Below are positions 47,417 through 62,123 of a stretch of DNA of 64,000 nt, piece after piece. The notes below the pieces were generated by a model that saw nothing but the letters and a program-made list of their open reading frames with translations, was not told the DNA's origin and did not search any database. The first letter of the stretch is position 1, and the number at the start of each line of letters is the position of its first letter. This DNA is from Halieaceae bacterium (GTDB lineage: Bacteria > Pseudomonadota > Gammaproteobacteria > Pseudomonadales > Halieaceae): positions 1 to 64,000 of the forward strand of contig CACNSR010000010.1 of the NCBI GenBank assembly GCA_902623175.1. Direction: 5' to 3'. The position numbers were made by a program, and so were the translations under genes.

Positions 47417-47890
47417 CTATGGAAAGCGAATCCAGTCCTCATCGCTTGAACGATGTTGTTGGCGATCTTTCTTACCCGGCACGACATAGGCCATAACGTC
47501 TGCCACCGTAGGCATACGTAAGTTGGCGCCTGCCATCATCCAATGGGCATTTCCCCGACGAAACGCCGCCTTATTATTCTTCACAATTACTTTTTTCATG
47601 ACATCATGGTTTACGCCCGTATCGCCCAGATGCACTGCCATGATTTCACTGAGTGTGTCCCCGGGCTGAACTTTGTACACGCCGTTGACGACCGAGCCGG
47701 CCGATGACGAGTACACTGAAGCACTCACTCCAGAAGGCGTTTTTGCTTCAAAGTCGTTCTCGCCGATAAACGCTCGCAGACGAGCGACATCGTTATCTGA
47801 AATAACGGATTGAGCCCACGTAATCTGTGCGACCGTAAGGGTTATCAGAGTAACGCAAGCAGTTAACCATGTGCGAACAATTATTTTCAT
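47417..47890 (-). CDS. Periplasmic LysM/FimV-core domain protein
   Basis: 157 residues. A signal peptide ('TACVTLITLTVAQITWAQS') is followed after ~45 residues by a LysM of the FimV type: 'YKVQPGDTLSEIMAVHLGDT' and 'KAAFRRGNAHWMMAGANLRM'. No membrane anchor and no long acidic region, so it is much shorter than FimV/HubP. LysM binds peptidoglycan. Located between flgT and the FliK-like gene, so a role in the outer part of the basal body is likely; exact function unknown. Confidence 0.7.
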   Translation of the reverse strand: MKIIVRTWLTACVTLITLTVAQITWAQSVISDNDVARLRAFIGENDFEAKTPSGVSASVYSSSAGSVVNGVYKVQPGDTLSEIMAVHLGDTGVNHDVMKKVIVKNNKAAFRRGNAHWMMAGANLRMPTVADVMAYVVPGKKDRQQHRSSDEDWIRFP

Positions 47891-47904: not shown

Positions 47905-49068
47905 TTAAGGCAAAGTACCCAACAGTTCTCCCTGAGATACGAGCGCGCCCTCCCCGGCAGGCAGGGGCTCAGCCTGTGCCCGATTGTCGTCTGCTCGAAC
48001 CACCTTCAACATCAGCAGAGTATCCAGCGTCATATCACTCACAACGTTATTCACCATGAGTTCGCGGTCACCCACCAGTAACCAGGTGCCCTCTGTGACT
48101 CCACGCATTCGTCCGGCGTCAACACTGAAGCGATCTGGCCCGTCTCGGCTGACCATAAACAAACGAGGCAAACACTTGGTCGCATCGGTAAACTCCCCGG
48201 TAGCGTCTGATACCCAATCTGCGAGATCTTCCTGGTCTTGCTCCATCACCCACTCACCTGACTGAAAGGCGCGGTATGCCCCGGTATTAACCAAGGCTTG
48301 AAAATCACCCAGCGGGCTTCTCGCCGCTGGCTGCGCGAATGAGAGCGTAATCGCGAACTTTACGGGCTTGGACTTGGACGAAATGACATAGATCATCGAC
48401 GACAGACCGGGATGATTGATGTAGAAATCATTCTCTTCCCGATCGTCTACAAGCATTCGCACAGACACCGATACGGCAAAGTCCGGCGCAGGACCGTCTG
48501 ACCAGTCTCCGACCAGCGCCCGCGCATAAGTTGTGTTCTGATAGCTGTCGGGCTTTGGACCTACGGGCGCGAGCACACGGAAGCCTTCAGCACTAAGGCT
48601 CCGCTCCAGAGCTGAAACCAGTAGTACCTCTTGTTGTTGCTGTAGCGTGCCCTCGGAGGCTTGCCTAATCGGGGGAGACACCAACCGAATCGCCACTACG
48701 CCAGAATTGCGGCCTTGGTCCGTCCAAAGTTGGCAACGCGCTGCGTCGGACACCTGCGCAGCCTCCAGAGACTGCTCACCGCCCATGGCGTCCAGATAGC
48801 TCTCAACCTGCACACCCCGCACATCCGCCTCGCTGGAGAACATGGCGCGCTCATGTAATCGGCCCTGGTCATCAATGTAGGCAACCCCCTTCACACGCGC
48901 CCCTGATTCCAATGCCGCATCCAGAGCGCGCTGCTTGAAGGCAGAAAGATACGCAGAAGCCTCCGCATCATTGAACAATGCCTGGGAGCCATCCTGTGAC
49001 CAAACAGTAGGGGTCTTCAGGATACAGCTGCCGATCAACCAGATCGCTAAAAACTTCCCACTTTCCAC
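47905..49068 (-). CDS. flgT: FlgT-like H-ring assembly protein
   Basis: 387 residues with a signal peptide ('AIWLIGSCILKTPTVWSQ'). The N-terminal domain resembles FlgT ('ALDAALESGARVKGVAYIDD'), the middle has 'ALVGDWSDGPAPDFAVSVSV' and the C-terminal domain 'RFSVDAGRMRGVTEGTWLLV'. FlgT builds the H-ring around the LP ring of Vibrio-type polar motors. Sits 18 nt after flgP, matching the flgOPT arrangement; flgO was not found. Confidence 0.72.
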   Translation of the reverse strand: MESGKFLAIWLIGSCILKTPTVWSQDGSQALFNDAEASAYLSAFKQRALDAALESGARVKGVAYIDDQGRLHERAMFSSEADVRGVQVESYLDAMGGEQSLEAAQVSDAARCQLWTDQGRNSGVVAIRLVSPPIRQASEGTLQQQQEVLLVSALERSLSAEGFRVLAPVGPKPDSYQNTTYARALVGDWSDGPAPDFAVSVSVRMLVDDREENDFYINHPGLSSMIYVISSKSKPVKFAITLSFAQPAARSPLGDFQALVNTGAYRAFQSGEWVMEQDQEDLADWVSDATGEFTDATKCLPRLFMVSRDGPDRFSVDAGRMRGVTEGTWLLVGDRELMVNNVVSDMTLDTLLMLKVVRADDNRAQAEPLPAGEGALVSQGELLGTLP

Positions 49069-49086: not shown

Positions 49087-49572
49087 TCAGGACCTCGATG
49101 CCATTACGGCGCGCTCGAGGTACAGCACTCTCAGGTCATTAACGATACTCTTATCAAGCGACATTGTGACCTCATAAGTATCGGTGCCGCGCGGCTCAAT
49201 TTGCACCAAATTGGCACCGTAAACAACGCCCTCTACCCGTGCGCGAAAACTATCGCTGCGAACGACCATGTCAGCCACGGTTGTCGTGGAATCGAGGTAC
49301 TGACCATAAACCTGCTCTGTCAAGCCTCTGTACGCATCGAGTTTGGCCGCGCGGATCGCCAGCAATCTCCGCTGGGCGGGGATATCGCTAGGCTGCACAT
49401 CGATCACCGCATACCCGGTAGCCGTCAGCGTATCTCGTCGCTCAACCATGGGCTCGACAAACGATGCGTCTGGCTCAAAATTCAAATAAGCCAGCGTTTC
49501 GAGCGTTTCGCAGCCGTTAAGTAAAGCAAAAACCAGAAGTGCCGACCATCCAATAAAAAATTTGCGCATCAC
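49087..49572 (-). CDS. flgP: FlgP/LPP20-family outer-membrane lipoprotein
   Basis: 161 residues. Lipobox L-N-G-C in 'VFALLNGCETLE'. Family core: 'ATGYAVIDVQPSDIPAQRRL', 'AIRAAKLDAYRGLTEQVYGQ' and 'VVYGANLVQIEPRGTDTYEV'. FlgP forms disk or H-ring material around polar flagellar motors. First gene of its operon, with a sigma28 promoter about 100 nt upstream. Confidence 0.82.
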   Translation of the reverse strand: MMRKFFIGWSALLVFALLNGCETLETLAYLNFEPDASFVEPMVERRDTLTATGYAVIDVQPSDIPAQRRLLAIRAAKLDAYRGLTEQVYGQYLDSTTTVADMVVRSDSFRARVEGVVYGANLVQIEPRGTDTYEVTMSLDKSIVNDLRVLYLERAVMASRS

Positions 49573-49854: not shown

Positions 49855-51975
49855 GTGGAAGCCATGCTGTCAAATTTCCGACAGTTTTCCGACCGCTTAA
49901 CGTGGTTCAGCGCGAAAAGTGTCGGTGCGCCGACACTGGTGCTGCTCATTCTGGCGCTATTGGTTGTGCCATTACCCGCTTTTGTACTCGACGTTCTGTT
50001 CACATTCAACATTATGGTCGGTCTGTTAATGGTGATGATCACCCTTAACACGCGGAAGCCGCTCGAATTCTCATCCTTCCCATCTGTCCTGCTGATCGCC
50101 ACCTTGCTGCGGCTAGGGCTGAACGTGGCCTCGACACGGGTCGTGCTCGTGGAAGGGCACACTGGCACCGACGCGGCGGGTAAAGTCATTGAGTCTTTCG
50201 GTGAGTTTGTAATTGCGGGTAACTATGTTGTCGGTTTCATCATTTTCTTGATCTTGATGATCATCAACTTCATCGTGGTGACCAAAGGTGCTGGCAGAGT
50301 ATCCGAGGTTATCGCGCGCTTCACTCTGGATTCTATGCCGGGCAAGCAGATGGCGATTGACGCGGATCTTAATGCGGGCATTATCGATCAGGAAGCGGCC
50401 AAGCAACGCCGAAACGAGCTCACTCAGGAGTCCGACTTTTACGGTTCGATGGACGGTGCATCGAAGTTCGTTCGCGGTGATGCCATCGCCGGCATCCTCA
50501 TTCTGATTATCAATATCGTTGGCGGTTTGATCGTCGGCACGACACAGCATGATCTGAACCTGAGCGAAGCAGGGCGGATATACGTATTGCTGACCATTGG
50601 TGATGGTCTGGTCGCCCAGATCCCCTCTCTTCTTTTGTCACTCTCGACCGCCATTCTGGTCACACGGGTGACTACCGATGAAAGTATGACAGAGCAGGCG
50701 TCCAAGCAGGTCGCAGATGCTAATGGTGTATTCATTGCCTCTGGAATTGTGACGCTCCTGGGGCTCGTCCCAGGTATGCCCCACTTTGTCTTCTTGCCCC
50801 TGGGTGCTGCTGGCATTGGTCTGGGCTACTACATCAGGCAGCAGGCAGCTGAGCAACAAAAAAAGGCCGTGAACGCCGAGGCAGCCGCCGAGGTCGAACC
50901 CGCCAATCGTGAGTTAGATTGGGAGGATATTGATCAGGTAGAAGTCATTGCACTGGACATTGGCTACGGATTGGTGCCGCTTGCCAATACGCAATCAGGT
51001 GGGCAACTGTTGACGCGGATCCGTGGCATTCGCAAGAAGCTCTCTGCCGAATTAGGTTTTCTGATTCAGCCGATTCGAATCAGGGATAATCTCGACCTCA
51101 AGCCCGAGGTCTATCAAATCTCCCTTCACGGGGTCGTCCGCGGCTCCGGTGACGTGCGTGTCGGCAAGCTGCTTGCGATCAACGGCTCAGACACGCCCGC
51201 GCCCATTGAAGGGGAGCCGACAACCGAGCCCGCTTTTGGACTGGATGCGCTGTGGATTGAGTCATCCCAAGCTGAATTGGCCCGAGGGCTAGGCTACACA
51301 GTAGTCGACGCACCCACGGCTATAGCTACCCACATAAATGCCGTCATTCGAGAGAGCGCCAGCGAGCTACTGGGCCAGGACGAAACTCAGCAACTTCTTG
51401 ACAAGGTCGCTATTCGCTATCCAAAGCTGGTGAGCAGTTTGGTGCCAGATTTGCTGCCGCTTTCGACAGTGACACAGGTGCTGCAGAATCTTTTGGCTGA
51501 ATCCGTGCCGGTTAAAGATATGCGAAATATCATCGATACACTGACAGCGCACGCCAAAGAGAACCAAGACGCTAGCCACCTCACCTCGCTGGTGAGACCT
51601 AAGCTGGGCAGGTTAATTTGTCAGCCGCTTGTGGATGAGACCGGCACGCTGACCGTGATCACGCTTGCGCCTGACCTGGAAAAACTGCTCGAGAGCAGTC
51701 ACGCCGGGACAGAAACCGATCACATTACGCTGGATCCGACGCTTGCCAACTCGATGATTGAGAGCTTGAGGGCAGAAGCAGAGAAGATACAGGATACCGG
51801 GACAGTCGCGACACTGGTGGTTTCTCCGGGATTAAGGAGCTGGATGTCTCGCTTCGTTCGCGTTCGCGTGCCAGATCTGACGGTGCTCTCCTACACCGAG
51901 ATACCTGATGATCAACGCATCCAAGTACAGTCTAGCATCGGTGGAGAGACGGCCATCGAAGGGGAAACGGAGTAA
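49855..51975 (+). CDS. flhA: Flagellar export gate protein FlhA
   Basis: 706 residues. Membrane half with 'VGAPTLVLLILALLVVPLPA' and the FHIPEP-family stretch 'SFPSVLLIATLLRLGLNVAS'; cytoplasmic half with 'EVIALDIGYGLVPLANTQSG'. Starts at GTG 49855, which has GGAGGT at the right distance; an ATG follows 9 nt later. Sigma54 promoter upstream. Confidence 0.96.
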   Translation: MEAMLSNFRQFSDRLTWFSAKSVGAPTLVLLILALLVVPLPAFVLDVLFTFNIMVGLLMVMITLNTRKPLEFSSFPSVLLIATLLRLGLNVASTRVVLVEGHTGTDAAGKVIESFGEFVIAGNYVVGFIIFLILMIINFIVVTKGAGRVSEVIARFTLDSMPGKQMAIDADLNAGIIDQEAAKQRRNELTQESDFYGSMDGASKFVRGDAIAGILILIINIVGGLIVGTTQHDLNLSEAGRIYVLLTIGDGLVAQIPSLLLSLSTAILVTRVTTDESMTEQASKQVADANGVFIASGIVTLLGLVPGMPHFVFLPLGAAGIGLGYYIRQQAAEQQKKAVNAEAAAEVEPANRELDWEDIDQVEVIALDIGYGLVPLANTQSGGQLLTRIRGIRKKLSAELGFLIQPIRIRDNLDLKPEVYQISLHGVVRGSGDVRVGKLLAINGSDTPAPIEGEPTTEPAFGLDALWIESSQAELARGLGYTVVDAPTAIATHINAVIRESASELLGQDETQQLLDKVAIRYPKLVSSLVPDLLPLSTVTQVLQNLLAESVPVKDMRNIIDTLTAHAKENQDASHLTSLVRPKLGRLICQPLVDETGTLTVITLAPDLEKLLESSHAGTETDHITLDPTLANSMIESLRAEAEKIQDTGTVATLVVSPGLRSWMSRFVRVRVPDLTVLSYTEIPDDQRIQVQSSIGGETAIEGETE

Positions 51976-51981
51976 TAGATC

Positions 51982-52767
51982 ATGCGACTTGAAGTATTAG
52001 AAGCGCCAGACCACAGCGCGTGTATGGAGCAACTGAGTAACCGCCACGGGGCTGATTGCTTGGTCGTGCACAGCTTTAGGGTCGACAGGCGTTACCGCGT
52101 TGTGGTGGCACTGGAAACTGAATCTCCTCAAAATGCTGATCTAGTGGAAACCGCAGTGAAAAACGTTGTTTCAGGCTCACGCCTTCGTTGGGATACCCTC
52201 GTCGATGGAGCGCCCACCTCCTCTGATGAGCAAATCGATAACAGGCCAGTTATTACAAATCTACCGAACCACGAAATAGCAGCACCAAACCCCGCACCCG
52301 AAATCAGCTCCGGTCTGTTGGAGCTTGCTGCCCGTGTGAAGGCGTTGGAGGCCGCTCACCAGCCTGCTGTCCTTGAACCCGAGTCCGAGGAGTTTCGAGC
52401 GGCAGTTTTTTCCGACGTACTCGCGGATGCCGTTGCACAGCGAGCGAGGGAGCCGGCACCAGGAGGTGAGGTGACCACGGCGGACAACTTGGCGCTTGGG
52501 AATACTTCCCCGGCACAAACCTCGATGGCGATATCCCGCTTCCCGTCACCGGTTAATGCACTAGTTGATCGAGTAGAGCCCTCTCTCTCGGTTACACTAG
52601 ATGACGCGGACTGGGCAGAGGAGGCTCCGATACCCAGAGTGTTTACCTCAGCGGGTGCAGAGGGCTTTGCAAGCCTGCTGATGGAATGTGTTGCCGATTC
52701 TCGGAAAAGCCTACCCCTTTCTGGCCAGACTCAGCTTAAAATGGCCGCAGGGCATAGTATCCTCTAG
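51982..52767 (+). CDS. FlhF-like protein lacking the GTPase (NG) domain
   Basis: 261 residues in the exact flhF position between flhA and flhG. The first ~45 residues follow the FlhF N-terminal domain: 'MRLEVLEAPDHSACMEQLSN', then 'GADCLVVHSFRVDRRYRVVV' (compare the usual M-K-[IV]-K-R-F ... L-G-x-D-A-[VI]-[IL]). The rest is a Pro/Ala/Glu-rich linker and a short helical tail. No P-loop (G-x4-G-K-T), no D-T-A-G and no T-K-x-D motif is present, and the next gene starts 50 nt later, so the SRP-type GTPase domain is absent rather than frameshifted. FlhF normally marks the pole for flagellar assembly. Confidence 0.65.
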   Translation: MRLEVLEAPDHSACMEQLSNRHGADCLVVHSFRVDRRYRVVVALETESPQNADLVETAVKNVVSGSRLRWDTLVDGAPTSSDEQIDNRPVITNLPNHEIAAPNPAPEISSGLLELAARVKALEAAHQPAVLEPESEEFRAAVFSDVLADAVAQRAREPAPGGEVTTADNLALGNTSPAQTSMAISRFPSPVNALVDRVEPSLSVTLDDADWAEEAPIPRVFTSAGAEGFASLLMECVADSRKSLPLSGQTQLKMAAGHSIL

Positions 52768-52817: not shown

Positions 52818-53603
52818 ATGCGTGTAATTGGTGTTACCAGCGGTAAGGGAGGTGTTGGCAAGACAACGGTCTCGGTGAACCTCGCTGCCGAGCTCGCCAA
52901 ACGCGGCAAGAAAGTGGTTTTACTCGATGGTGATCTGGGTCTAAGCAATGCTCAGATCCTTCTAAACGCCAGAGTAGAGTACAGCTACGGACACGTCCTG
53001 TCGGGTCAGAAGACCCTCGAAGAAATCATGGTGCAATCTGAATATGGCGTCACTTTGGTGCCAGGTTCCAGTGGGTCATCTGCGCTCGCAAGGCTGACAC
53101 GCCTGCAACTACTGGGTTTAATTCATGCGCTGTCAGCGCTAGATGACTGCGATTACCTCGTGGTGGATACCGCCGCGGGCATCAGTGACAATGTCACTGT
53201 CTTGTTTGGTGCCTGTGACATTAAACTGCTATTAATACAAAATGAGCCCTCGTCGATCGCTGATGCTTATGCGACGGTCAAAGTGTTACAGCAGGAGTTC
53301 AACCTCTCAGACATCATGCTGACGCCGGTTCAGGTGACCAACGAGAGAGAGTCTGAGAATATTCACAAGCGTATTAACAAAGTGACTGCGCAATTCCTCG
53401 GGCTATCTCTCGAGTATGCAACCGGGATTCGCAAAGACCCTGTCGTCCTCAACTCGGCAAGGCTTGGGCAACCGGCGATCCTTCACGCGCCAGAGAGCGA
53501 CATTGCCAAAGACATTAGACGACTGGTCGACGTGATCACCGAGGCAGCAAGCAAACCCGCCGGCTCCAGCGATATCAGGATATCGGTAGGCGCAAAGGGC
53601 TAG
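52818..53603 (+). CDS. flhG: MinD-like ATPase FlhG/FleN without the FlhF-activating N-terminus
   Basis: 261 residues. Deviant Walker A '[20 protein letters not shown]' begins at residue 8; '[20 protein letters not shown]' and '[20 protein letters not shown]' follow. FlhG limits flagellar number in polar flagellates. Typical FlhG starts with a D-Q-A-x-x-L-R helix that stimulates the FlhF GTPase; here the protein starts directly at the first beta-strand ('[12 protein letters not shown]'), and an in-frame TGA at 52773-52775 rules out an upstream start. Confidence 0.88.
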
Positions 53604-53606
53604 ACC

Positions 53607-54326
53607 ATGTCAAAGGGCTATCAGGCATATGCTGACGCGTTATCGCAAGCCGAGCCAAGCGGCAAAAACGCCGCGGTGCTCCAGCATATCGGCCTGGTGC
53701 ACAAAACTGCATTACATATCAAAGCCCGTTTACCTGAACACGTAGAACTCGAAGAACTTGTTCAAATCGGCATGGTCGGGTTACTCGAGGCCGCCAAATC
53801 TTATGACGCCTCACAGGGCGCAGACCTCGGCACATTTGCCAGCAAACGCATCCGCGGCGCCATTTTGGACGAGGTAAGAAAGCGGTCACCTTTGTCACGG
53901 ACTGACAGCTCGAACATGAAAGCCGAAGAGCAGGTGGTCGAGCAGTTTATGGCCAAGCACGGCAGGCCGCCCACAGCGAGTGAAGTCGCCACAGAATTGG
54001 ATACCTCATTAGAGGATTATCAGAAGCAGCGAGACCGATCGCAGAAATTCAGAACCACTTCACTTGCTGAGCTAGAGGACAACGGACAGGCGCCACTTTC
54101 TGAATCGGCCAGCCCTGAACAAGAAGTCGAAGCGGCAGACACCAGTGAATGGCTTGCCAGCGAGATCCGTGAACTCCCCGAGCGAGAGCAGATTGTGCTT
54201 TCTCTATACTACAACGAAGAGATGAATTTAAAAGAAATTGGCGCGATTATTGGGGTTACCGAATCACGGGTGAGTCAGATTCTCACCAAGGTAGTGGGCA
54301 AATTGCGCGACCGGGTCGCGTTTTAA
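53607..54326 (+). CDS. fliA: Flagellar sigma factor sigma28
   Basis: 239 residues. Region 2: 'HVELEELVQIGMVGLLEAAK' and 'GTFASKRIRGAILDEVRKRS'. Region 4: 'LPEREQIVLSLYYNEEMNLK' and 'EIGAIIGVTESRVSQILTKV'. Starts 3 nt after flhG. Likely reads the sigma28 promoters found here before flgM, flgP and the unknown gene at 55538. Confidence 0.95.
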   Translation: MSKGYQAYADALSQAEPSGKNAAVLQHIGLVHKTALHIKARLPEHVELEELVQIGMVGLLEAAKSYDASQGADLGTFASKRIRGAILDEVRKRSPLSRTDSSNMKAEEQVVEQFMAKHGRPPTASEVATELDTSLEDYQKQRDRSQKFRTTSLAELEDNGQAPLSESASPEQEVEAADTSEWLASEIRELPEREQIVLSLYYNEEMNLKEIGAIIGVTESRVSQILTKVVGKLRDRVAF

Positions 54327-54341
54327 GGTATTGGCTAGATC

Positions 54342-54824
54342 ATGTTTGGAAAAAAATCAAAACTTGAACGTGTCAAAGCAGATGCGAGAGCTGATTACCT
54401 AAAATGTGCCGTATTGGATCCTGATGATCGATTGCATCGCGTGTTCTCAGCGAGAATTGCCCAGCGGGCCCGGCTCAACTTGGACAAAATTTTTGTGCAG
54501 GGCGCCAAAGCTGAGGAGAAGCGTCAACTCGAGCTCGCAGAGGCAATCAAGGCAGGCGCTGATCTGCCGCCGAGGATTGTTCACGAAGGTTATAACCAAT
54601 TACAGGGGGTCTCAGGCACTGTGATCTCCTGGGTGCCTGAGGAGCTGGCCAACAAAATGTTCAATCTCGGCGCTGATTATCAGATTACAGAAATCAGCGC
54701 TCACGAGGCTATGCAGCACGCAGATACGATTGCCGAGACTCTGGTTGAGGACTTGCAGACAAATCAGGTTATTCAGCTGCTAAACCTACTGCGAGAGGAC
54801 GACGTTGATGAGGCTGAAGAATAG
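54342..54824 (+). CDS. Unknown protein downstream of fliA
   Basis: 160 residues, soluble, mostly helical, acidic C-terminus ('LNLLREDDVDEAEE'). Stretches such as 'VKADARADYLKCAVLDPDDR' and 'QGVSGTVISWVPEELANKMF' match no family I recognise. In polar flagellates the genes after fliA are usually chemotaxis genes, but this shows no CheY or CheZ features. Starts 15 nt after fliA, so it is co-transcribed. Confidence 0.6.
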   Translation: MFGKKSKLERVKADARADYLKCAVLDPDDRLHRVFSARIAQRARLNLDKIFVQGAKAEEKRQLELAEAIKAGADLPPRIVHEGYNQLQGVSGTVISWVPEELANKMFNLGADYQITEISAHEAMQHADTIAETLVEDLQTNQVIQLLNLLREDDVDEAEE

Positions 54825-54861: not shown

Positions 54862-55500
54862 ATGTCTCTAGAGAACATTGTCATTGCCGTCTCACTCCTG
54901 CTGGGGATAGTACTCCTAATACTGATCATCTATCTCATTAGCCGGGTAAACGATCTCGAGGCCAAGGCTTTTTCCAGTCAAGGAACGATAAACCCGGCAG
55001 AAAAAAAAACCGAGAATGAGTCACAAAAGGTGTTTGGAGGTCTCAGCGGCCGCCAGCTTTGGGATGAATGGGTATCGATAGCGAATGGTGGCGATGATCA
55101 GTATGGCATCAAAGGAGACCGCGACCGCTTTCTAGCCCTACTTGAACTCCATGTCCGCTCGCTCATTAAAGCCGGAATGGAACATGGCGCCACGGGTACT
55201 AATGAACAACCCTCAAACCCCCTCAAGATCAAGATGCTACGAGGAGAATTCGAGTCTTACCTGCCGTCCTCTCAGGCAAGCCGCCTCTACGAGCTTGGTC
55301 AGGAATTCGGTTCTAGCGAGGATGCCCAACAGCGCGCGGCCTTGGGGGCAGCGTTGACCGAGACCGTTGATGCAGTCTCGATGGGTATTGATGCCGGCTC
55401 CTCTTTTGTCGAGGGCGCCATGCGCGATGTATTAATCAACCCTTCGGAGTCCGAGTCGAAGCAGGAGTTAGTCCCCTCGGATAATCCTGACAACGTCTAA
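54862..55500 (+). CDS. Unknown single-pass membrane protein
   Basis: 212 residues. One N-terminal membrane segment ('IVIAVSLLLGIVLLILIIYL') and a cytoplasmic remainder with 'FGGLSGRQLWDEWVSIANGG' and 'RDRFLALLELHVRSLIKAGM'. No known domain recognised. 37 nt after the previous unknown gene, and convergent with the unknown gene at 55538. Confidence 0.6.
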   Translation: MSLENIVIAVSLLLGIVLLILIIYLISRVNDLEAKAFSSQGTINPAEKKTENESQKVFGGLSGRQLWDEWVSIANGGDDQYGIKGDRDRFLALLELHVRSLIKAGMEHGATGTNEQPSNPLKIKMLRGEFESYLPSSQASRLYELGQEFGSSEDAQQRAALGAALTETVDAVSMGIDAGSSFVEGAMRDVLINPSESESKQELVPSDNPDNV

Positions 55501-55537: not shown

Positions 55538-56356
55538 CTATTCCCGCACAGCACTGGGGGGAAAGACGATCGCCCCCTCTGGGTAAACTTTCTCGGATAC
55601 CTGCGCTGGCTCTTCGATGCCATCGCTGCGCATCTGGGCTTGCTGCAGGGCTAGCTGCGCCTCAAACAGATCGGTGAGCTTATCTCGCTCAATCTCAATG
55701 AGTGTGGACACTTCGCGCTTTAGTGCGGCGACGTCTCCAAAACCTGACTCCAATTGCCTCACCCGTCTCGCCAACTCCGACAACTGCTCAGACTGCTTTT
55801 GCAATTGAGCCACCATCGCGCGGCTTGACTCTACGCCACTTCGAGTCACCTCACTGGTATCGATCACAGTTGAATTCACTCCGGCCATGGAAGCTTCCAT
55901 TTGCTCAGCCAAAATCCTACCATCCTGTTCTACCTGACCAATTGCTTCAGCCAGCTGCGCTTGCCCCTCGTCCAGCATGGTTAGCTTCTGATCAAGCACA
56001 ACCATCCGGTCAAGTGCAGAGTTCATGTTCACGACACGCTTGGTAATAGACAAGGTTGCGGCCTGCAGCGCCTCCACCTGACCCGACAACCGACCGCCCG
56101 CCACCATCAGTAGCACAGCACAAAGGAATACCACCACGGCAGCGCCCCCGGCGAGTCGTTTGGCGTAAAACTCCATCTTCCTGTTGGCCTGGCCAGCTGA
56201 GTCAAGCGCTCTATCCAGTCGCGTGTGAGTGTCAGCGTTAAGCTGTGCCATCGCATCGCTTACCGGGTTGGGTTGAGTCGACACGCCGTTATTCACGCTC
56301 TTCTGGCGGGGCAAAGTCAGTTCGTCGTCCGCTCCCGGGTTTTCTTCATCTACCAT
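55538..56356 (-). CDS. Unknown coiled-coil membrane protein
   Basis: About 272 residues from the ATG at 56356, which has GGAG 9 nt upstream; the ORF track's start (56365) is less well placed. One membrane segment around residues 67-90 ('AAVVVFLCAVLLMVAGGRLS') is followed by ~130 residues of heptad-like coiled coil ('LQKQSEQLSELARRVRQLES'). The N-terminus is probably cytoplasmic. No known family recognised. It has its own sigma28-like promoter, so a late flagellar or motility role is likely. Confidence 0.6.
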   Translation of the reverse strand: MVDEENPGADDELTLPRQKSVNNGVSTQPNPVSDAMAQLNADTHTRLDRALDSAGQANRKMEFYAKRLAGGAAVVVFLCAVLLMVAGGRLSGQVEALQAATLSITKRVVNMNSALDRMVVLDQKLTMLDEGQAQLAEAIGQVEQDGRILAEQMEASMAGVNSTVIDTSEVTRSGVESSRAMVAQLQKQSEQLSELARRVRQLESGFGDVAALKREVSTLIEIERDKLTDLFEAQLALQQAQMRSDGIEEPAQVSEKVYPEGAIVFPPSAVRE

Positions 56357-56381
56357 GTCAAGCATCTCCGTCTTGGGGGAA

Positions 56382-56408
56382 TTATCGGTCTTTTCCCCGA
56401 TATTTTTA
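56382..56408 (-). promoter_or_regulatory. Candidate FliA (sigma28) promoter of the 55538 gene
   Basis: Minus strand TAAAAATA-N11-ACCGATAA: the TAAA core, exact spacing and a single change (A for G) in the -10. It overlaps the stop codon of the upstream gene and ends about 25 nt before the ATG. Confidence 0.6.
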
Positions 56409-57371
56409 GCGCGGAATCTTTGCCAGAAGCTGCTCCAGCCAGACCATCAGTTGGTCCCACAAAGGTGTCGCAATGGCCTGGCCTGCTTCCCAAATCGGCG
56501 GGTGCAAAGCACCAGCAACCGCCAGAAATAGCGCGACTGAGAGCACCACAATCAGGCTCGCGGATATCAGCGACCCCACTCGGGGGAGCAAGGCAGCCCA
56601 GTTAACCCTGATTTTGAGACCTTTTTTCCGCTCCTCCTCAGGCTGATCACCGCACGCTGTGATCTCCGGCGAATCGGGAGATTGTAAAGGGACGGTCGCG
56701 ACAGACTTGGACTCGTCGTAATCCAATACGCTGTGCCTGGGGGCATCATCAACCGACAAACCCGCTGTTTCTGAGGCCAAGCTGTACCACTGTGAATACG
56801 TTAGAGAGGGCAGCATTTCGAGGAGAGCACCCCTCTCGTGGCACTCATTGAGATACCGCTCCATTGCCGCTCTATCCAATGGCGTGAGTCGGATGAGTTT
56901 ATTACGCGACTTGAGCGACAACTGCTGGAGCGCCGAAGCGTCATGATTGTCGATCGTTGAAAAAGCCAACATCCCGACATTGGAACCCGGAAAGGTATTG
57001 ACCAGAGACTCACAAGCCATCCACTCCTCGCCCGCATTTGGTCCAAAATCCGGCATCACGATGATATGGCGCTCGTTAGCTTGCTGGTTGCGGGCCTCCT
57101 CAATGCTAAAATCCGCCAAAACAGTATTAAACAAGGCCACAATGTCATCCACCTTCGGAGACATCATGCGATGCAACTGCAGTCCCGGCTCGAGTTTCAG
57201 CTGGTGGTAAAGGGCAAGGAAACAGGCGTCAATGTGGAATTCTTCCTCGCCCACAATGAAAACGTTGGACATATCCGTTAACAGGGCATCGCGCGCTGAA
57301 GCCAGAATACTTTCATCATCCGGGTGAGGCAGCGAGTTCAGTATCGGGGCATCTGTCGGGTCTGATGTCAT
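56406..57371 (-). CDS. Degenerate AAA-like (ExeA/DamX-type) membrane protein
   Basis: 321 residues. The first ~190 follow the order of ExeA/DamX-type AAA domains, especially 'KLIRLTPLDRAAMERYLNEC' and 'LTYSQWYSLASETAGL'. However the Walker A position reads 'FIVGEEEFHIDACFLALYHQ' with no G-K-[ST], and the Walker B region reads 'HIIVMPDFGPN', so ATP hydrolysis is unlikely. One membrane segment near residues 275-297 ('SLISASLIVVLSVALFLAVA') and a short C-terminal tail. Starts 41 nt after the flhB stop, so it belongs to the fli operon. Confidence 0.55.
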   Translation of the reverse strand: MTSDPTDAPILNSLPHPDDESILASARDALLTDMSNVFIVGEEEFHIDACFLALYHQLKLEPGLQLHRMMSPKVDDIVALFNTVLADFSIEEARNQQANERHIIVMPDFGPNAGEEWMACESLVNTFPGSNVGMLAFSTIDNHDASALQQLSLKSRNKLIRLTPLDRAAMERYLNECHERGALLEMLPSLTYSQWYSLASETAGLSVDDAPRHSVLDYDESKSVATVPLQSPDSPEITACGDQPEEERKKGLKIRVNWAALLPRVGSLISASLIVVLSVALFLAVAGALHPPIWEAGQAIATPLWDQLMVWLEQLLAKIPR

Positions 57372-61118: not shown

Positions 61119-62123
61119 CTAGCTCTCCGCCAGCTCAACGGCCTGAAGCAATCGTGCCGCCGTATAGCCATTTGCAGTACCTACCTCAGCCTCAAACAAC
61201 GGAATGTCGTCCACCAATACGCGCGCTAAATCAAACTTGCGCAGATCTAATAAATCGCCCACCTGCATTTTATTGAAGTCGCCAAGCGTCATTTCGACCT
61301 CACCCAAAATAACGCGATGTTCGAGCTCGGCGTCAGAGGCCGCACCGGCCAGCTCTCGAGCCCACACATCATGATCTACGGACGGATCTTCGGAATCCTG
61401 GACTCGACCCCTGAGCACGTCACGAATAGGCTTTAGAGTTGCAAAGGGATAAACCACATCAATTGTGCCGCGCTCCTTATTAGACAGCTCCACCTCGAGG
61501 TGGCACACAATAACGAGATCGTTCTCATCGACAATTTGCACAAACTGCGGATTAATTTCGGAGCCGATGTGCTCGCACTGAATCTCCATGATGGGAGACC
61601 AGGCTTCATGTATGGAGGCGAAGACCACCTCGAGCATAATGTTGATAATACGGGTCTCGGTCGGGGTGAACATCCGGCCCGGGGGTAGCCCCTCAATACC
61701 GCGCCCAAACCCGCCAAAAAAGTTATCGAGCGAGGCAAAGATCACGTTGGGGTCAATGACCACCATCGACGTGCCGCGCAGCCCGGACAAGCGAACCGTA
61801 TTTACGGATAGCGGTGCCTTCAAGTCCTGCAAATATTCAGAGAATGGGAGCGTCTTGACCCGGTCGGCAGTAATTCGCGGGCTGGTCCGCAGTACCTCGA
61901 GCAACCCCATCCGCAAGTGACGTGTGAACCGTTCGGTGATCATATCCACCGCAGCCAAATTGATACCAATAGTGGTATCTTCCGTCACCAAATTGTGAGG
62001 GCGAATCTCTGCACTGAGGGCAGCCTCAGGGTCAATCAGAGAGGCTGAATCATCATCAAACCCCTCGTCAGAGGCCAATGCATTGAGCTCCTCTTCGGAA
62101 AGTCTGCTGCTATCTTCGGCCAT
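61119..62123 (-). CDS. fliM: Motor switch protein FliM
   Basis: 334 residues. N-terminal CheY-binding region is 'LSEEELNALASDEG', followed by 'DMITERFTRHLRMGLLEVLR', 'FFGGFGRGIEGLPPGRMFTP' with 'TETRIINIML', and a C-terminal SpoA domain 'MTLGDFNKMQVGDLLDLRKF'. Recruits FliN and binds CheY-P. Confidence 0.95.
   Translation of the reverse strand: MAEDSSRLSEEELNALASDEGFDDDSASLIDPEAALSAEIRPHNLVTEDTTIGINLAAVDMITERFTRHLRMGLLEVLRTSPRITADRVKTLPFSEYLQDLKAPLSVNTVRLSGLRGTSMVVIDPNVIFASLDNFFGGFGRGIEGLPPGRMFTPTETRIINIMLEVVFASIHEAWSPIMEIQCEHIGSEINPQFVQIVDENDLVIVCHLEVELSNKERGTIDVVYPFATLKPIRDVLRGRVQDSEDPSVDHDVWARELAGAASDAELEHRVILGEVEMTLGDFNKMQVGDLLDLRKFDLARVLVDDIPLFEAEVGTANGYTAARLLQAVELAES

Follow-up and report, generated by a model that had tools for sequence, protein, structure and literature searches.

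The 64,000-nucleotide stretch of DNA analyzed here (the window) encodes, within a flagellar gene cluster, a natural FlhF protein without the GTPase (NG) domain, which is a new form of the known FlhF. Descriptions of FlhF make it a GTP switch with two jobs, starting the flagellum and placing it. The protein in the window consists of the N-terminal FliG-interaction domain (FID) of FlhF followed by a mainly disordered tail; we put the probability at about 70% that this inherited protein binds FliG and helps to nucleate the MS-ring/C-ring in a GTP-independent manner. The starting points for this reading, all obtained by computation, are the homology and predicted fold of the FID, the absence of NG, the conservation of the gene, at least two losses of NG and the graded erosion of the GTPase in relatives.

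The gene for NG-less FlhF extends from an ATG at 51982 to a stop codon at 52765–52767, encodes 261 residues as read from the window, and is the single open frame between flhA, which ends at 51975, and flhG, which starts at 52818, 50 nt past the flhF stop (Table 1). The first-pass annotation had assigned it to the flhF position, and the profile matches of flhA on its 5′ side and flhG on its 3′ side agree with that assignment.

Table 1. NG-less flhF, its parts and flagellar genes near it in the window.
Feature	Position	Strand	Basis and remarks
flhA, upstream neighbor	49855..51975	+	TIGR01398, 846 bits, over NCBIfam cut-off
NG-less flhF, 261 aa	51982..52767	+	FID profile, TIGR03499, six-frame NG search
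FID, residues 1–48	51982..52125	+	beta 2–8, alpha 11–22, beta 26–34, beta 37–44; pLDDT 87–98 per 10-residue block; best PDB match 9en1
Tail, residues 49–261	52126..52764	+	mostly low-confidence, probably disordered; no detectable likeness to FlhF linkers/NG
First conserved tail helix, residues 110–125 (SGLLELAARVKALEAA)	52309..52356	+	helix in both AlphaFold models
Second conserved tail helix, residues 136–156, FSDVL at 143–147	52387..52449	+	AlphaFold and alignment
flhG	52818..53603	+	MinD-like, ATPase motifs intact, start directly before P-loop, without DQAxxLR activation helix
fliA (sigma 28)	53607..54326	+	NF005413, over cut-off
fliM	61119..62123	-	TIGR01397, over cut-off

Residues 1–47 of the 261-residue protein are the FID of FlhF. 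A Pfam search with the protein returned nothing over cut-off, and the FlhF model TIGR03499 aligned residues 1–63 to profile positions 1–70 with a weak score of 18.9 bits (E = 0.0012), far below its whole-protein cut-off of 174 bits. An HMM of the N-terminal 48 residues was built from 63 named FlhFs that are full-length, carry a P-loop and were located via their flhG neighbors; it ranked the gene first among the 770 stop-to-stop window frames of at least 40 codons (E = 0.0007; next frame, E = 1.5), with a score of about 14.6 bits against a maximum of 4.7 bits over 2000 shuffles of the protein. When eight NG-less proteins were compared with 18 full-length FIDs, profile to profile, the two aligned at a probability of 95.9%, gapless from M1 to M1 over 47 columns. 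AlphaFold run with an alignment folds residues 2–44 as beta-alpha-beta-beta (pLDDT 87–98 per block), and from the single sequence it gives the same elements at lower confidence. For both models the top Foldseek matches are chains of 9en1, with target TM scores of 0.78–0.87 (with alignment) and 0.68–0.73 (single sequence) and best E-values of 0.0016 and 0.045, which are modest, the domain having only ~45 residues; a sequence profile made from the NG-less set alone did not find 9en1 in the PDB at E up to 10. The 9en1 entry is the crystallized FliG-interaction domain of Shewanella putrefaciens FlhF. The likeness of the first ~45 residues to FlhF, proposed at first pass with structure prediction as a check, is therefore upheld by the FID HMM, the profile–profile comparison and the structural match to 9en1.

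No P-loop occurs in the 261-residue protein, and when all six frames of the flhA–flhG interval were searched, here and in 11 relatives, with an NG profile built from 74 FlhFs, no NG remnant was detected, positive scores falling only on FlhG's own P-loop; on five control loci, one of them a P-loop-less relative, the same profile scored 105–253 bits. This search rules out a frameshift or a hidden NG domain. The window's own genome, which is 85% complete, holds two GTPases of the SRP54 type, encoded by frames of 462 and 385 aa, which we take from their lengths to be Ffh and FtsY, and no FlhF was found elsewhere in it; a third SRP-type GTPase was absent from all 13 NG-less genomes among the 39 genomes searched. 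Because of the 85% completeness, a remote second FlhF keeps a small probability in this genome, and a far smaller one in the NG-less genome G001, a single contig of 98% completeness with exactly two SRP GTPases; by these counts the candidate second FlhF was rejected for both genomes. A broken gene or an assembly error can be discounted, since an NG-less gene recurs in 13 of the 40 family intervals read, one of them in the one-contig G001. The first-pass annotation had described 261 residues without a P-loop, flhG 50 nt on and an NG domain that was not merely frameshifted, and had asked whether a full-length FlhF lay elsewhere in the genome; coordinates, motif search, the empty six-frame search and the two SRP-type GTPases all accord with its description.

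Work on other bacteria indicates what the retained part may do. In S. putrefaciens, residues 1–60 of FlhF suffice for FliG binding, NG binds HubP, and FliG in complex with FlhF accepts FliF but excludes FliM/FliN (PMC11236974). Pseudomonas aeruginosa FlhF without the G domain (FlhF-BN) is spread in the cytoplasm and gives a flagellum, non-polar, in about 65% of cells; this construct, which includes the N domain, allows flagella to be made but does not restore motility (PMC12713375). In the systems studied, polar positioning thus lies with NG or G, as HubP binding in S. putrefaciens (PMC11236974) and polar localization in P. aeruginosa (PMC12713375) indicate. A GTP-independent FliG adaptor is the most likely role of the natural protein because it matches the FlhF-BN truncation in the parts lost, and by the same analogy the engineered G-less state, with mislocalized flagella, is the state predicted for NG-less FlhF. 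The FID would still bind FliG, and the protein would help to nucleate the MS-ring/C-ring, possibly holding off FliM/FliN; it can neither bind GTP nor enter the NG homodimer that depends on GTP, and both switching by FlhG and docking through NG on HubP are closed to it, so that its help in assembly would be detached from the polar switch, which relies on GTP and HubP. Release of FliG would have to proceed via competition, or via FlhG acting on FliM/FliN, and flagellar placement would be either non-polar or set by the tail helices, FlhG, FimV or another neighbor. The window's FID has diverged, sharing 19% identity when the profiles are aligned, and FliG binding may for this reason be altered or lost. 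The first-pass annotation had suggested a GTP-independent landmark or adaptor. The adaptor is favored by the structure, the six-frame search, the SRP-GTPase counts and the 13 of 40 family intervals with an NG-less gene; the landmark is unsupported, since polar positioning maps to the lost NG/G part and what has been kept is the FliG-binding arm.

The retention of FliG, FliF, FliM, FlhG and FimV was also computed. FliG (314 bits) and FliM are over cut-off, and FliG is adjoined by what we presume, from their sequences, to be FliF and a FleQ-type regulator; G001 and another genome, G087, also keep FliG, FliF, FliM, FlhB, FliP and FliI. The FliM N-terminal stretch LSEEELNAL resembles, in our judgment, the EIDAL-type motif that binds FlhG/CheY. 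FlhG is of the MinD-like type, and its KGGVGKT and DTAAGISD motifs are intact. The FimV core protein is kept in the window's own genome as a 636-aa frame; HubP/FimV, a mark of the polar FlhF system, is accordingly present in an NG-less genome, and its loss alongside NG is ruled out.

The tail bears on a different possibility, a doubtful one in our estimate, in which it has taken over the polar job: its two helices would bind FimV, FlhG or a neighbor and tether FliG to the pole without GTP. Both helices appear in both AlphaFold models and carry residues invariant in the alignment of eight NG-less proteins (L115, A116, A121, L122, F143, S144, and L147), and this conservation is what makes a new tether, or a tail-based polar anchor, possible. 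The motif F-x-[DENQ]-[VILA]-L, which was picked after inspection of the tails, is found in 11 of 12 NG-less tails (the twelfth, in G066, has an ambiguous residue at the site), compared with 3 of 74 named full-length proteins searched from residue 46 to the P-loop and a chance per tail of 0.013–0.048 estimated by shuffling; FimV, moreover, is kept. However, 11 of the 12 tails come from one clade and are not independent, the motif was chosen post hoc, the tail evolves faster than the FID, and the partner is only putative. A still more specific version is tentative to a similar degree: placement would be GTP-free, the FID delivering FliG and the tail helices or another partner giving the address, such that a linear-motif tether would have replaced an SRP-type GTPase at least twice after decay of the GTPase. 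The tail was also considered as a decayed NG domain or linker and rejected, there being no similarity (hhalign probability ≤0.3% in three comparisons).

The distribution of the NG-less gene in the family was surveyed in 140 genomes, 55 of which have FlhG at 1e-25. Forty flhA–flhG intervals were read, the window's included, and the other 15 genomes all have FlhF over the TIGR03499 cut-off, a score reached in 27 of the 140; flhG was present in 39 of the 40 fetched loci, G108 being dropped because it had none. In these intervals, whose inspection the first-pass annotation had recommended in search of the same short gene, an NG-less gene of 171–290 aa occurs in 13 of 40, a full-length FlhF without a P-loop in 7 and one with a P-loop in 20. 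One NG-less gene (G002) is cut by a contig edge, only its tail being visible; the 12 genomes with a visible start all have an unbroken frame, a count that is not one of independent cases because 11 of these 12 proteins form one clade.

Two flagellar lineages are separated within the family by a tree of FlhG, for which the program warned of long branches. In the one that includes the window, the named records L067 and L068 and the genomes G006, G007, and G003 retain NG with a P-loop and altered G2–G4 motifs; G005 has lost NG and its sister G003 has kept it (support 99/96), and G005 stands apart from a larger clade (G001, G002, G064, G093 and eight more; support 100/97) in which all members are without NG. 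Unless there was a regain of NG, this branching requires that it was lost at least twice. FlhF of the other lineage shows stepwise decay of the G motifs, up to a subclade of seven with P-loop, G3 and G4 all altered (L043, L046, L047, L048, L049, L053, and L055, the loci of G072, G063, G098, G070, G075, G060, and G058, respectively; frames of 365–373 aa); in G058, the sole P-loop-less member tested, the NG fold is still detectable at 105 bits. These seven full-length FlhFs are apparent pseudo-GTPases. Along this series the G domain of FlhF loses its match to PF00448: of the 26 full-length genomes searched, 7 score 135–99 bits, 8 score 66–30 bits and 11 are below threshold.

A further reading makes NG-less FlhF a relic: small genomes with relaxed polarity could dispense with the GTPase, and the FID left behind would be disappearing in its turn, having no function of importance. 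The 261-aa gene does diverge fast, with 40–78% identity in six close relatives whose FlhG is 93–99% identical, and FID scores drift down. We nevertheless regard this as improbable, given that none of the 12 visible-start genomes has a broken frame, that the FlhG tree has the NG-less gene kept since before the split from G001, and that dN/dS is well under 1 in both pairs with small dS. For G000/G091 and G081/G066, respectively, dN/dS is about 0.23 and 0.11 in the FID, 0.40 and 0.23 in the tail, which thus evolves faster than the FID, and 0.01 and 0 in FlhG; the other three of the five pairs were unused, their dS being near or above 1 or saturated. NG-less FlhF is under purifying selection.

Outside the family, a P-loop pattern is seen in a frame next to flhG at 74 of 80 named flhG loci in a broad collection, and six have no FlhF-type frame by the filter applied. 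FlhF matches at 1e-25 were obtained in 196 of 369 genomes of a class-wide sample (182 over cut-off), and the FID in 181 of 329 genomes of a phylum sample and 262 of 390 in an order survey; the window's own scores in the last two surveys are not independent evidence because it is one row of the FID profile used. Among the matches listed, five short FID frames besides the window's were picked from the phylum sample and rejected, one being cut by a contig end and four having a downstream NG in another frame; the order survey adds only one more, in G385, where the contig ends ~0.6 kb beyond the FID. Distant NG-less FlhFs outside the family could be missed, as the surveys cover the stronger matches listed. 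That the gene of the window is likewise an artefact of frameshift or mis-assembly, or has a complete second FlhF elsewhere, is very improbable and already contradicted: the genome is a draft (85% complete) and the five short frames of the phylum survey were such artefacts, but no frame here contains NG, many genomes share the arrangement, and G001, in one contig, has two SRP GTPases only.

Two other features were considered as marks that co-evolve with NG. The DQAxxLR activation helix of FlhG stimulates FlhF. It is absent from FlhG of the window and of all NG-less relatives read, but its loss, true here, is not specific, because a loose DQAxxLR pattern likewise fails to match at 32 of the 74 named loci that have a P-loop FlhF and occurs in only 3 of 39 family loci, full-length genomes included, and because Pseudomonas FleN is also without the helix (PMC12713375). 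The model for DUF2802 (PF10975) matched 1 of 140 family genomes, below cut-off, and no control genome; the loss of FipA, presumably the DUF2802 protein, is uninformative as a mark because this model finds almost nothing family-wide.

Compared with S. putrefaciens FlhF, the protein of the window shares the gene place between flhA and flhG and the N-terminal FID fold (9en1), but lacks the N and G domains and, with them, the GTP site, the NG dimer and the NG–HubP contact. It resembles engineered P. aeruginosa FlhF-BN in having the B domain and no GTPase domain (PMC12713375); FlhF-BN, however, is a laboratory construct that has the N domain, whereas the present protein has none and is natural and inherited. 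The P-loop-less full-length FlhFs of relatives, from the same bacterial family, have likewise kept the FID and lost the GTP-binding motifs; they differ in their separate flagellar lineage and in a still detectable NG fold (105 bits in G058). No report of a natural FlhF without NG was found in the titles and displayed abstracts of the open-licence PubMed Central papers listed, and the consulted part of a December 2025 review of FlhF/FlhG evolution mentions none (PMC12826062).

Laboratory truncations separate the starting from the placing of the flagellum (PMC11236974 and PMC12713375). Evolution appears to have run the domain-deletion experiment otherwise made by hand, keeping the piece that grips FliG, and one bacterial family contains the intermediates too, from the complete GTPase, by way of an NG fold lacking the P-loop, to the protein that has no NG. 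Because the two jobs have been separated in this way, with intermediates, which FlhF functions need GTP becomes testable, as do the release of FliG by FlhF without hydrolysis and the role of FlhG where there is no GTPase to stimulate.

Several observations concern the wider cluster. Within one genus, FlhG is 92–99% identical to that of the window in eight genomes, 68–75% in two and 32–38% in the other matched genomes, and these two flagellar lineages within a single genus suggest that the flagellar cluster was replaced by transfer. The proteins at 47905–49068 (-) and 49087–49572 (-), neither of which has an NCBIfam match, we take from their place and likeness to resemble FlgT and FlgP of Vibrio-type motors. 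At 47417–47890 (-), a 157-aa protein, possibly a small polar or cell-wall factor, matches FimV_core weakly, at 26 bits against a cut-off of 43; in 11 genomes of the window's flagellar lineage, with NG present or absent, it is encoded close to the flagellar genes on their contig. Beside flhG–fliA, four proteins without an NCBIfam family match (54342–54824, 54862–55500, 55538–56365, and 56406–57371) are kept in G087 and in one-contig G001 and are candidates for flagellar placement in the lineage.
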